From positions 1 to 44,927 of the forward strand of contig JAILDK010000089.1 of the NCBI GenBank assembly GCA_024689485.1: a DNA stretch of 44,927 nucleotides, written 5' to 3'. This document shows positions 12,096-15,392 of the stretch, in pieces. The notes beneath the pieces are model-generated. The model saw only the letters and a program-made list of their open reading frames with translations, had not been told where the DNA came from and made no database searches. Each line of letters begins with the position of its first letter. The stretch's first letter is position 1. Position numbers and translations under genes: made by a program. Source of the DNA: Fibrobacter sp. GTDB lineage: Bacteria > Fibrobacterota > Fibrobacteria > Fibrobacterales > Fibrobacteraceae.

Positions 12096-13298
12096 ATGCC
12101 GGTTTTCCTTTATAAGGCGCAAAACACTCAAGGAAACCAGTTCTCCGGGGAAATTGAGGCGAAAGACAAGAACGAAGCGGAATCCCTGCTTCGCCGTAAA
12201 CACTTGGTGATTGAAAGCCTCAAGCGCAAGCCGCTTGAAATCAAAATCAATATCGGCTCGGGCATCAAAACCAAGGACGTTTCCCGTTTTACGCGCATGT
12301 TCAGCTCGATGACTTCCGCAGGCCTTCCGATGCTCCAGTGCTTGACCATTTTGGAAGAGCAGATGGAAAACCCGGCGATGCGTGAAGTGGTTCACAAGCT
12401 GACGATGTCGATCAGTGGTGGTTCGAGCCTTGCCGATGCTTTGACTCAGCATCCGAAGGTTTTTGACAAGCTCTACTGTAACATGGTTGCGGCAGGTGAA
12501 GCGGGCGGTATTTTGGACGGTATTCTTTCTCGTCTTGCCGACTACCAGGAATCGAACGAACGCTTGGTCCGTAAAGTGAAAAAGGCTTTGACTTACCCGG
12601 TGATGGTCGCTGTCGTGGCAGTCGTTGTGGTGATCTTGATGCTTTCCTTCGTGGTGCCGACCTTCGCAGCTTCGTTTATGGAACTCGGTGGTGAACTTCC
12701 GTGGCCGACGCAGTTCGTGATGGACCTTTCGGATGTGATCCGCGATTATGCGGCGTTCTGGATTTTGGGCGCGGTCTCGATTATTGTCGCGTTCAAGGTG
12801 ATTATGAAAGTGCCGAAGTTGCACTTTGCCTTTGATAAGTTTATGCTTAAAGTCCCGAAAGTGGGCGACTTGCAGATCAAGAGTGCCGTGGCGCGTTTTA
12901 GCCGTACTTTGGGTACGCTTTTGAATGCCGGTGTTTCGGTGACGGAAGCGTTGCAGGTGACGGCAAAGACTTCGGGTAACTCCGTGGTCGAAGCGGCGAT
13001 TATGAAGATTGCAGTCGGCCTTGCTGGCGGTAAGAGTATTGTGGAACCGATGAAGGACGCGAAGATCTTCCCGGCGATGGTCATTCAGATGGTCGGCGTC
13101 GGTGAAAAGACGGGTCAGCTCGGTGCGATGCTTTTGAAGGTTGCGGACTTCTACGATGAAGAAGTGGACGCTGCCATTGACGCTTTGACGTCGATGATGG
13201 AACCGCTTATCATGGTGGTGCTCGGCGGTGCTGTCGGCTTCCTCATGATTGCAATGTACATGCCGATGTTCAGTATGTCGGATGCGATTAAGGGCTAG
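12096..13298 (+). CDS. pilC: Type IV pilus inner-membrane platform protein PilC
   Basis: Protein of 400 aa of the type II secretion F family, on which the pilus motor ATPases act. The N-terminal cytoplasmic region contains FLYKAQNTQGNQFSGEIEAKD. Two T2SSF repeats follow, each with the FTRMFSSMTSAGLPMLQCL / FSRTLGTLLNAGVSVTEAL core and the GEAGGILDGIL / GEKTGQLGAML motif. The three membrane helices of the family are visible. It is cotranscribed with pilT and ends 57 bases before a strong terminator. Confidence 0.95.
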   Translation: MPVFLYKAQNTQGNQFSGEIEAKDKNEAESLLRRKHLVIESLKRKPLEIKINIGSGIKTKDVSRFTRMFSSMTSAGLPMLQCLTILEEQMENPAMREVVHKLTMSISGGSSLADALTQHPKVFDKLYCNMVAAGEAGGILDGILSRLADYQESNERLVRKVKKALTYPVMVAVVAVVVVILMLSFVVPTFAASFMELGGELPWPTQFVMDLSDVIRDYAAFWILGAVSIIVAFKVIMKVPKLHFAFDKFMLKVPKVGDLQIKSAVARFSRTLGTLLNAGVSVTEALQVTAKTSGNSVVEAAIMKIAVGLAGGKSIVEPMKDAKIFPAMVIQMVGVGEKTGQLGAMLLKVADFYDEEVDAAIDALTSMMEPLIMVVLGGAVGFLMIAMYMPMFSMSDAIKG

Positions 13299-13309: not shown

Positions 13310-13341
13310 CTGATTAATCGATTGTAATCACTGATTAATCA
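13310..13341. promoter_or_regulatory. Paired CTGATTAATC repeats, candidate activator binding site
   Basis: CTGATTAATC occurs at 13310-13319 and again at 13331-13340, 21 bp apart (two helical turns). TGATTAATCA at 13332-13341 is itself a perfect palindrome. The pair lies about 80-110 bases upstream of the start site expected from the sigma-54-type promoter at 13393. That distance is typical of binding sites for sigma-54 activators, but the link is inferred. Confidence 0.4.
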
Positions 13342-13354
13342 CTTTTGAAAAATG

Positions 13355-13389
13355 AAAAACGGCGATTTCTTTTCGAAATCGCCGTTTTT
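13355..13389 (+). terminator. Strong terminator after pilT-pilC
   Basis: AAAAACGGCGATTTC pairs perfectly with GAAATCGCCGTTTTT around a TTTTC loop. The T-run is part of the stem and the hairpin could work on both strands. It insulates spoVG from pilC read-through. Confidence 0.85.
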
Positions 13390-13392
13390 GTT

Positions 13393-13408
13393 TTGGCACG
13401 CATTTTGC
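13393..13408 (+). promoter_or_regulatory. Sigma-54-type (-24/-12) promoter of spoVG
   Basis: The sequence reads TTGGCACG-CATT-TTGC, an exact match to the classic TGGCACG-N4-TTGC consensus with the invariant GG and GC exactly 10 bases apart (GG at 13395-13396, GC at 13407-13408). Transcription would start near 13420. A weak competing sigma-70 reading exists (TTGTTT at 13388, TAATAA at 13411, spacer 17). Confidence 0.6.
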
Positions 13409-13410
13409 CT

Positions 13411-13448
13411 TAATAAGTGCGTCTCGATGTTGAGACGCTAACTTATTA
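13411..13448 (+). other. Long inverted repeat at the expected spoVG transcription start and leader
   Basis: GCGTCTC (13419-13425) pairs perfectly with GAGACGC (13432-13438) around a GATGTT loop. Outside it, TAATAAGT (13411-13418) matches ACTTATTA (13441-13448) after a 2-base bulge. The repeat ends on the first base of the AGGAGG ribosome binding site (13448-13453). If transcription starts near 13420, only the inner hairpin is RNA and would cap the 5' end. The outer arms would then be DNA-level operator arms. Confidence 0.6.
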
Positions 13449-13458
13449 GGAGGGCGCA

Positions 13459-13812
13459 ATGCCAAAGGTCAAAACTGCAACAGCAGAAGTCAAACAGGAT
13501 AAGCAGGAAAAGCCGGCGAAGGCTTCGGAATTCGATTGCCTCGTCGTCACCAACGTTCGCGTGTATCCGTTCAAGGATGGCATCAACATGGGCCACATCA
13601 AGGCGCTTGCCCGTGTGGTTCTGAACGACCAGTTTGAACTCACACAGCTCCGCGTGATGGACGGCGAAAACGGTCTGTTTGTCGGCTACCCGAACGACCC
13701 GTTCTACAAGGGCGAGGAATACCGCAGTATCTTCTACCCGATTACCCGCGAATGCCGCGAACACATTGAAAACTGCGTGCTGGAAAAGTACCAGGAAGTC
13801 ACTGCAGCATAA
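13459..13812 (+). CDS. spoVG: SpoVG-family protein
   Basis: Protein of 117 aa. After a Lys/Ala-rich 20-residue N-terminal extension, the SpoVG core shows TNVRVYPFKDGINMGHIKAL, ARVVLNDQFELTQLRVMDG, and NGLFVGYPNDPFYKGEEYRSIFYPI. SpoVG proteins bind nucleic acids and affect septation, sporulation or virulence genes in other phyla; this organism is not expected to sporulate. The AGGAGG at 13448-13453 with a 5-base spacer is the best ribosome binding site in the window. The gene is followed 11 bases later by comM. Its promoter region is unusually elaborate. Confidence 0.9.
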   Translation: MPKVKTATAEVKQDKQEKPAKASEFDCLVVTNVRVYPFKDGINMGHIKALARVVLNDQFELTQLRVMDGENGLFVGYPNDPFYKGEEYRSIFYPITRECREHIENCVLEKYQEVTAA

Positions 13813-13823
13813 GAGGTTTCGAC

Positions 13824-15392
13824 GTGTTTCAAAGAATTCGCACAAGCTGCCTGCTCGGAATCAAGGCGATTCCCGTCAACGTAGAAGTTGATTCTTCGCC
13901 GGGACTTCCCGGTTTTACACTGGTCGGTCTCCCGGACAATGCTGTTCGCGAATCTCGGGAACGCGTCGTTTCCAGTATTCGAAGTTCCGGTTATGCGGCT
14001 TCCGGAAGTCGCATGACTGTGAACCTTTCCCCTGCGGATTTGCGCAAGGAAGGAACCTCTTTGGACCTTCCGCTTGCAATCGGAATGCTCGTGGCGAGCG
14101 AAGAAATTCAGGCGGAGCGTCCAGAAAGATTTGTCTTCTTGGGGGAGCTTTCTTTAGATGGAAAGGTGAAGGCTGTACACGGAGTGCTTTCTGTGGCAAT
14201 GAGCCTTTCTAAAAAGGAAGACATTTTGGTGGTGCCGAGGGAAAACGTGGCGGAGGCGAGCCTTGTGGAAGGGCTTTCGGTGATTGGCGTCTCCACCCTT
14301 GCGGAATGCATTGATGCGATTGCACCGGGTTCTGTAAATCTCCCGGTGCGGTCGTGCGGAATTTCGCACAGGGTTTTGCCTGCGGATCCCTCGGTGCCGG
14401 ATTTTCGTTCGGTGGTGGGAATGGAAGGGGTGAAGAGAGCCTTGGAAATTGCGGCGGCGGGCGGTCATAACTTTTTGCTGGTCGGTTCCCCGGGCTCTGG
14501 CAAAACTTTTTCCGCCCGCTGCCTTCCGGGCATTTTGCCTCCGATGACCGATGAAGAAATTCTCGAATGTACGCGCATCTATTCTTCGCTACATGTTCTG
14601 GGGGAAGATAAGGCGGAAAGCTTTTTTGCTCGGCGCCCGTTCCGTTCCCCGCATCATTCTTCGTCGATGGTTTCGCTCGTCGGGGGCGGCGTGCATCTGC
14701 GCCCCGGCGAAGCGAGTCTCGCTCACAACGGAGTGCTCTTTTTAGATGAACTGCCCGAGTTCAACCGGAACGTTCTAGAGGCTCTCCGGGAACCGATGGA
14801 AGAAGGTGTCATCCACATTAGCCGCGCCTGTGGAACGGTCTCTTGGCCTGCGCGCTTTATGATGGGAGCGGCAATGAATCCATGCCCATGCGGATATTCA
14901 ATGGACCCAAAGCGGGAATGTACCTGCTTGCCGGATTCCATTCGACGGTATCGGCAACGCCTTTCCGGACCGCTGCTCGACCGGATTGACATCCAAATGG
15001 CGGTCCCGTCCACCGACCCGCAACAGCTGATGCAAATGCCGCCCGGAGAATCGTCCGCTGAAATCCGCGCCCGTGTGACCGCAGCCCGGAACTTGCAACA
15101 GCAACGGTTTAGGCGCACCCACTGCCGCACGAACTCCGAAATGACAAGCGAAGAAACGAAAAGCTTTTGCAAAATGAGCGTTGAAACGGAACGCTTTGCC
15201 GTTTCCGCCGCCGACAAGATACAGCTGAGCGCAAGAGGCTATTACCGCATGCTCAAGGTCGCCCGCACCATTGCGGACTTGCGAGCTTCACAATTCGGCT
15301 CTAAAGCGGAAGATGCAAAAAAGGCTTCCGTCGAATGTTCGGACATCGCGGAAGCTTTAAGATATCGCGCCTTTTCAGGCTTAAACAGTTGA
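13824..15392 (+). CDS. comM: ComM/YifB-type Mg-chelatase-like AAA+ ATPase
   Basis: Protein of 522 aa. An N-terminal ChlI-like Lon-fold domain (about 20-145, PGFTLVGLPDNAVRESRERV) precedes an AAA+ core with Walker A GSPGSGKT near residue 219, Walker B LFLDELPEF, and the C-rich MNPCPCGYSMDPKRECTC segment. A C-terminal helical domain follows. ComM homologues are hexameric helicases that promote branch migration during natural transformation. The start is GTG at 13824 with AAGAGG 7 bases upstream. It lies 11 bases after spoVG and probably shares its promoter. Confidence 0.92.
   Translation: MFQRIRTSCLLGIKAIPVNVEVDSSPGLPGFTLVGLPDNAVRESRERVVSSIRSSGYAASGSRMTVNLSPADLRKEGTSLDLPLAIGMLVASEEIQAERPERFVFLGELSLDGKVKAVHGVLSVAMSLSKKEDILVVPRENVAEASLVEGLSVIGVSTLAECIDAIAPGSVNLPVRSCGISHRVLPADPSVPDFRSVVGMEGVKRALEIAAAGGHNFLLVGSPGSGKTFSARCLPGILPPMTDEEILECTRIYSSLHVLGEDKAESFFARRPFRSPHHSSSMVSLVGGGVHLRPGEASLAHNGVLFLDELPEFNRNVLEALREPMEEGVIHISRACGTVSWPARFMMGAAMNPCPCGYSMDPKRECTCLPDSIRRYRQRLSGPLLDRIDIQMAVPSTDPQQLMQMPPGESSAEIRARVTAARNLQQQRFRRTHCRTNSEMTSEETKSFCKMSVETERFAVSAADKIQLSARGYYRMLKVARTIADLRASQFGSKAEDAKKASVECSDIAEALRYRAFSGLNS

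Follow-up and report, generated by a model that had tools for sequence, protein, structure and literature searches.

Which regulatory system controls the gene pair spoVG-comM in a gut Fibrobacter, and through which DNA sequences does it act? The question is raised by a 44,927-nucleotide stretch of DNA (the window; contig C114, from an assembly that has 2.5 Mb and is 98% complete), in which a sequence-only reading had noticed a match to the sigma-54 promoter consensus upstream of spoVG. We followed up this site within the genome and across the family Fibrobacteraceae. The assignment to Fibrobacteraceae implied by the sequence-only reading proved right. The genus of this genome includes F. intestinalis ATCC 43854; F. 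succinogenes is found among the other genera of the family. Gene names outside the window were read from translations unless a family search is given.

The sigma-54 site upstream of spoVG-comM

The features around the site, in window coordinates, are the following.

12096 to 13298, forward strand: pilC/gspF (T2SSF), the upstream gene (profile search)
13312 to 13319, 13320 to 13329 and 13333 to 13340, no strand: putative enhancer (UAS) array of three palindromes, GATTAATC, GATTGTAATC and GATTAATC
13355 to 13389, no strand: 15-bp inverted repeat, a near-symmetric terminator-like hairpin between the enhancer and the -24 element
13394 to 13408, forward strand: predicted sigma-54 promoter with the -24 element TGGCACG (13394 to 13400) and the -12 element TTGC (13405 to 13408), from sequence match, scan and conservation
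13420, forward strand: predicted transcription start, 12 nt after the GC of the -12 element, from sigma-54 promoter geometry
13419 to 13438, forward strand: 5' UTR hairpin GCGTCTC-GATGTT-GAGACGC, placed where the mRNA is predicted to begin
13448 to 13453, forward strand: Shine-Dalgarno sequence AGGAGG (from the sequence)
13459 to 13812, forward strand: spoVG, whose 117-aa product matches Pfam SpoVG and is extended by about 28 aa at its N-terminus (profile search)
13824 to 15392, forward strand: comM (YifB/ComM Mg-chelatase-like AAA+; TIGR00368, 557 bits, cut-off 362)

Positions 13393-13400 read TTGGCACG, followed by CATT (13401-13404, the N4 spacer) and TTGC (13405-13408). The reported exact match to the sigma-54 -24/-12 consensus was borne out: TGGCACG-N4-TTGC at 13394-13408 has no mismatch and occurs once in the window, and GG (13395-13396) and GC (13407-13408) indeed have the spacing of 10 bases that had been described. 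In a weighted scan of both strands of the window the site, located 51 bp 5' of spoVG, obtained 20.5 of 20.5. The five next best sites scored 18-18.5 and were all intragenic; the claim that the intergenic regions of the window contain no other such site therefore holds. The setting is gene-free, as had been stated, with pilC ending at 13298, spoVG starting at 13459 and the 15-bp inverted repeat between them; close relatives keep the stem of this repeat with a different sequence.

The spoVG product scored 72.2 bits against Pfam SpoVG (cut-off 29.6) and 63.3 bits against the NCBIfam equivalog PRK13259, and because the cut-off of the latter (108 bits) was not reached, we regard it as a divergent SpoVG-family protein. 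SpoVG proteins of other bacteria bind DNA and RNA (PMC3688583, PMC4959528). The gap between spoVG and comM is 11 bp, and comM lies directly 3' of the main spoVG in nearly all named loci of the family; judged from spacing and conserved order, the two genes appear to form one operon. As pilC is the neighbor of spoVG only in the nearest genera, it was rejected as part of this unit. For Gram-negative bacteria, ComM is given as the canonical helicase of branch migration during transformation (PMC11612176), and ComEC is also encoded in this Fibrobacter genome.

The 5' UTR hairpin is found in the genus, which keeps the stem with other bases, and it is not family-wide. The genus and part of g6 show it clearly, most of g4, g5, g7, and g11 weakly or not at all, and a 5' UTR structure conserved throughout the family was rejected on these grounds. 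Different spoVG 5' UTR hairpins, many with an AATG loop, were observed in part of g6. The hairpin could have a role in mRNA stability or in autoregulation by SpoVG.

A search for rpoN and for sigma-54 activators, suggested along with the original claim, found one complete rpoN (AID, CBD, and DBD domains) and five full activators (E1-E5) in the genome. The exact pattern TGGCACN5TTGC occurs 14 times in the 2.5 Mb. Ten of these sites read TGGCACG, all directly 5' of genes, and the four without the G are all intragenic; with uniform base composition, 11 fixed bases would be expected about 1.2 times per genome, compared to the ten TGGCACG sites seen. The site before spoVG thus appears not to be due to chance. 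The ten sites precede dnaK, groES-groEL, htpG, clpB, hsp20 genes, the gene of a sigma-70-family factor, a glnK-like P-II gene with amtB, a glutamine-synthetase-like gene, one gene of no assigned name, and spoVG-comM. Allowing one mismatch made the genome scan uninformative (178 matches vs. 230 for the reversed-pattern control), and therefore exact sites and conservation alone were used.

The sequence-only reading had missed that other genes of the genome, among them heat-shock and nitrogen genes, have sigma-54 sites as good as that of spoVG. GTTTCA...TGAAAC palindromes lie near several of those of the dnaK, groES-groEL, htpG, clpB, and hsp20 genes. All 13 Fibrobacteraceae genomes that were read have the groES site, as does the order-mate G152; the class-mates G155 and G160 lack it. 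The chaperone sites suggest a heat-shock regulon under sigma-54 that has an enhancer of another type and is separate from spoVG. The sigma-70-family factor (270 aa; regions 1.2, 2, 3, and 4; G000:C85, L018:551-1363) has an exact sigma-54 site 53 bp upstream, and a cascade from sigma-54 to sigma-70 via this factor is possible. Exact sites were also seen before the glnK-like/amtB pair (contig C30), the glutamine-synthetase-like gene and the gene of an exported protein (C126, C59); at about 2 kb from the last of these genes there is a gene for a sigma-54 activator, itself next to a kinase-like gene.

To follow the site through the family, 111 Fibrobacteraceae genomes, 105 of them with SpoVG, were collected and the DNA 5' of 93 main spoVG genes was read. 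Scores used ad hoc weights with a maximum of 20.5, and the null was a first-order Markov resampling of each region. Within 200 bp 5' of spoVG, 92 of the 93 main loci had a site scoring 17.5 or more (2.2% of shuffles), and 80 of 93 reached at least 19.5 (0.1% of shuffles). The GG and GC bases, whose conservation in other Fibrobacteraceae had been named as a test of the site, are thus kept before spoVG in 92/93 main loci, and also in most class-mates. The order-mate G152 and the class family f4 have a sigma-54 site before spoVG and comM downstream; in the class family f5 the sites before spoVG are weaker and comM is present. In the genomes read from other classes of the phylum, spoVG has neither a sigma-54 site nor comM. 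Secondary, phage-like spoVG copies are mostly without the site, with the exception of G069b, which belongs to a MAG with two promoter-bearing copies. On this comparison, the DNA upstream of spoVG-comM appears to be a deeply conserved sigma-54 promoter.

Conservation also bears on two other ways in which the genes might be transcribed. The sequence-only reading had named a sigma-70 pair (TTGTTT 13388 / TAATAA 13411) as its own alternative, which would be the main promoter if the GG and GC were incidental; the AT-rich bases do permit such a pair by eye. However, it was not called by a consensus scan, and the closest relatives change TTGTTT to TTGCTT or TTATTT and TAATAA to TAATAG or TTATAA, while GG/GC is kept in 92/93 loci. 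This alternative did not stand, and we consider it very improbable. Even less credible is read-through from pilC as the main source of transcript, with the sigma-54 site playing a minor part: pilC is co-directional in this genus, but the 15-bp inverted repeat intervenes, and other genera have a divergent or different upstream gene and nevertheless keep the promoter.

The putative enhancer array and activator E5

The three palindromes at 13312-13340, which the sequence-only reading had missed along with the likely cognate activator and the class-wide conservation, are candidates for the target of a sigma-54 activator. The outer GATTAATC copies are 21 bp apart, and the array ends 53 bp before the -24 element and lies about 95 bp before the predicted start of spoVG. 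It is the only array of its kind in this genome (reversed-pattern control 0). Most relatives have two or three GATTAATC-type copies at the same place 5' of spoVG, and in 63 spoVG promoters a median of 57 bp separates the last GATTAATC from the -24 element. Paired GATTAATC arrays occur in 58 of the 111 family genomes; the reversed-pattern control matches in one. Elsewhere other palindromes take their place: g4 and scattered species have GTGTTTAAACAC, further relatives TGGACA, and the class-mates TTCACC repeats. The array before spoVG is therefore best described as a putative enhancer for a sigma-54 activator.

The activators were compared in ten genomes of differing enhancer type. In GATTAATC genomes the recognition helix of E5 reads SRG[SC]LCYQ; the three genomes in the sample that have another enhancer type differ in this helix. 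The pairing is GATTAATC with SRG[SC]L[C/N/S/A]Y, GTTTAAAC with LYY, and TGGACA with SRSNLY; in f4, TTCACC repeats go together with yet another helix in the E5-like proteins, TRRALQYRL. We then read the HTH of E5 in more than 80 genomes, with the helix class defined by the residue after SRxxL (Cys/Asn/Ser/Ala/Thr/Val vs. Tyr/Asp) and the enhancer class by the presence of the core ATTAAT. Helix class matched enhancer class in 78 of 81 genomes (Fisher test, 8e-15, which ignores kinship), the three in disagreement being G080, G052, and G097. At least eight changes of the helix were counted on an E5 tree from which the HTH had been left out. Among independent pairs on well-supported (starred) branches, the enhancer followed the helix in 3.7 of 4 and never went the opposite way; the sign test (p = 0.125) falls short of significance because there are only four such pairs. 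Under a stricter definition of the enhancer (two GATTAA half-sites), two of the four pairs went the same way and none was opposed. The real argument would seem to lie in the repeated parallel switches in g4, in g11 (G109 vs. G108 and G110) and in g6 (G022 and others).

Could another of the five full activators bind the palindromes of a real sigma-54 promoter, for example the NtrC-like E3 with a histidine kinase? Apart from E5, E3 was the one activator to occur in each of the ten genomes compared. However, its helix type is alike in GATTAATC and non-GATTAATC genomes, independent of the enhancer, and E3 was rejected as the cognate activator. The same was concluded for E4, which is absent from g4 although the promoter is kept there, and whose helix varies within GATTAATC genomes, while E1 and E2 are absent from several genomes that keep the promoter. 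E5 alone among the activators appears to track the enhancer type, and we regard control by one of E1-E4 as unlikely.

E5 itself is a protein of about 300 aa with a Sigma54_activat domain (6-159) and a Fis-type HTH_8 (261-292), encoded on contig C94. It was found in 100 of the 111 family genomes and in 53 of the 56 good ones; it was not recovered in the good genomes G013, G026, and G055, which keep the spoVG promoter. In this genome the loop that contacts sigma-54 departs from GAFTGA and reads GAYTGA, and some relatives have GSYTGA or GVYTGS; because of this departure the activity of E5 with sigma-54 is assumed. The protein starts at the AAA+ domain and has no sensor domain; its activity must therefore, as far as domain content tells, be set by its own amount or by a partner. 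No partner was found among the gene neighbors (lysC, and pta in some genera). In most genera the E5 gene and lysC point away from each other, and in g1, g9, g10, and g11 pta comes after the E5 gene. Autoregulation of E5 via an array of its own was rejected, as neither an array nor a sigma-54 site precedes the E5 gene in the seven genomes read.

Arrays at other genes and the proposed circuit

F. succinogenes-type genomes have extra GATTAATC arrays away from spoVG, of which we examined 20. All 20 have a sigma-54 site downstream, at 54-66 bp (median 56), with a chance of 1.5% per window; some are orthologous between species, so that the independent cases are fewer than 20. This shows GATTAATC arrays, at the level of sequence arrangement, to be probable sigma-54 enhancers independently of spoVG. 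The spacer GCCGTTTTT...AAAACGGCAATTTTT between the enhancer and the -24 element recurs in many of the extra cassettes. Downstream of these cassettes are genes for a Gp49/HigB-like protein and its HTH partner (HigB/HigA-like), PIN and PD-(D/E)XK-family (Rpn-like) proteins, as well as DUF3800, DUF4160, and an HTH protein. This gene content suggests that accessory toxin-antitoxin-like genes may have joined the regulon of E5 and sigma-54.

The extra arrays also bear on the idea that the palindromes serve as binding sites for a repressor, or for SpoVG in an autoregulatory loop, with the activator acting elsewhere. The array shares its intergenic region with spoVG, and SpoVG homologues bind DNA and RNA (PMC3688583, PMC4959528). 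Nevertheless, like arrays stand at a like distance before the sigma-54 sites of unrelated genes, and the array sequence follows the E5 helix, which makes this explanation quite improbable.

We therefore favor, with a probability of roughly 0.8, the reading in which E5, bound to the array, switches on spoVG-comM through sigma-54. The computed support consists of the site, rpoN, the operon order, conservation, the array, its co-variation with E5, and the fixed distance between enhancer and promoter, seen also at other genes. E5, governed by its amount or by a partner protein, would bind the three GATTAATC-type palindromes at 13312-13340, loop to the closed complex of RpoN-RNA polymerase at 13394-13408 and use ATP to open it, and the spoVG-comM transcript would start near 13420. 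More tentatively, and with somewhat more doubt than confidence, we propose that Fibrobacteraceae have a dedicated program for stress or DNA exchange under E5 and sigma-54, with spoVG-comM as the ancestral target and the HigB/HigA-like, PIN, PD-(D/E)XK, DUF3800, and DUF4160 genes coming under the same cassette later in F. succinogenes-type species. If this is true, DNA recombination, a nucleic-acid-binding regulator and toxin-antitoxin modules would be switched together.

Comparison with known systems

The control sites of spoVG-comM change in step with E5 across the family, and the circuit to which this points would be a previously undescribed one. For a phylum on which the literature searched contains no reports of sigma-54 control, it would name an activator together with its DNA target and its regulon. 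It would also link SpoVG and ComM to toxin-antitoxin genes and give a testable answer on the control of both outside Gram-positive bacteria and classical competent species. The repeated natural swaps of a single residue of the recognition helix from Cys/Asn/Ser/Ala to Tyr, with the enhancer core changing from GATTAATC to GTTTAAAC, offer a ready test of how Fis-type HTH activators read DNA. A search of the freely accessible literature returned no paper joining Fibrobacter with sigma-54 regulation of spoVG or comM, and a survey of sigma-54 regulons in 33 classes mentions neither Fibrobacter, SpoVG, nor the SpoVG/ComM COGs in its main text (PMC12316311).

Sigma-54-dependent chaperone genes have been reported in Bacteroidota (PMC12316311). 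Fibrobacteraceae are alike in having sigma-54 sites before groES, in what looks like a separate regulon with GTTTCA...TGAAAC palindromes. RpoN has been tied to transformation in other bacteria too, through sigma-54 control of natural competence and type IV pili; Ralstonia, for example, needs rpoN1 both to be naturally competent and to move by twitching (PMC4371752). In the present case sigma-54 would act on spoVG and on the gene of the recombination helicase ComM.

Among activators, E5 resembles the PspF type without a sensor domain in consisting of AAA+ and HTH only, at about 300 aa. However, it scored 194.3 bits against the curated PspF model of NCBIfam (cut-off 443.6), has a GAYTGA loop, and no PspA partner was seen adjoining it (neighbors lysC, pta, and others). 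Its best PADLOC match over AAA+ and HTH is RtcR / RtcR_PspF2 (302 bits), the CARF-AAA-HTH activators of RNA repair (PMC7790460, PMC9650030). E5 is like these in the two shared domains, but the N-terminal CARF domain of RtcR is absent from it, and its proposed targets are other than rtcBA.

With sigma-54 promoters that depend on an enhancer and a bacterial enhancer-binding protein, the locus shares the -24/-12 geometry, a complete RpoN, an AAA+ activator with a Fis-type HTH, and palindromic repeats, here about 95 bp before the predicted start. It differs in its targets, which are spoVG-comM across Fibrobacteraceae genera and toxin-antitoxin-like genes in some species. The mechanism is of a known kind; the wiring and the co-variation of enhancer and helix are new.
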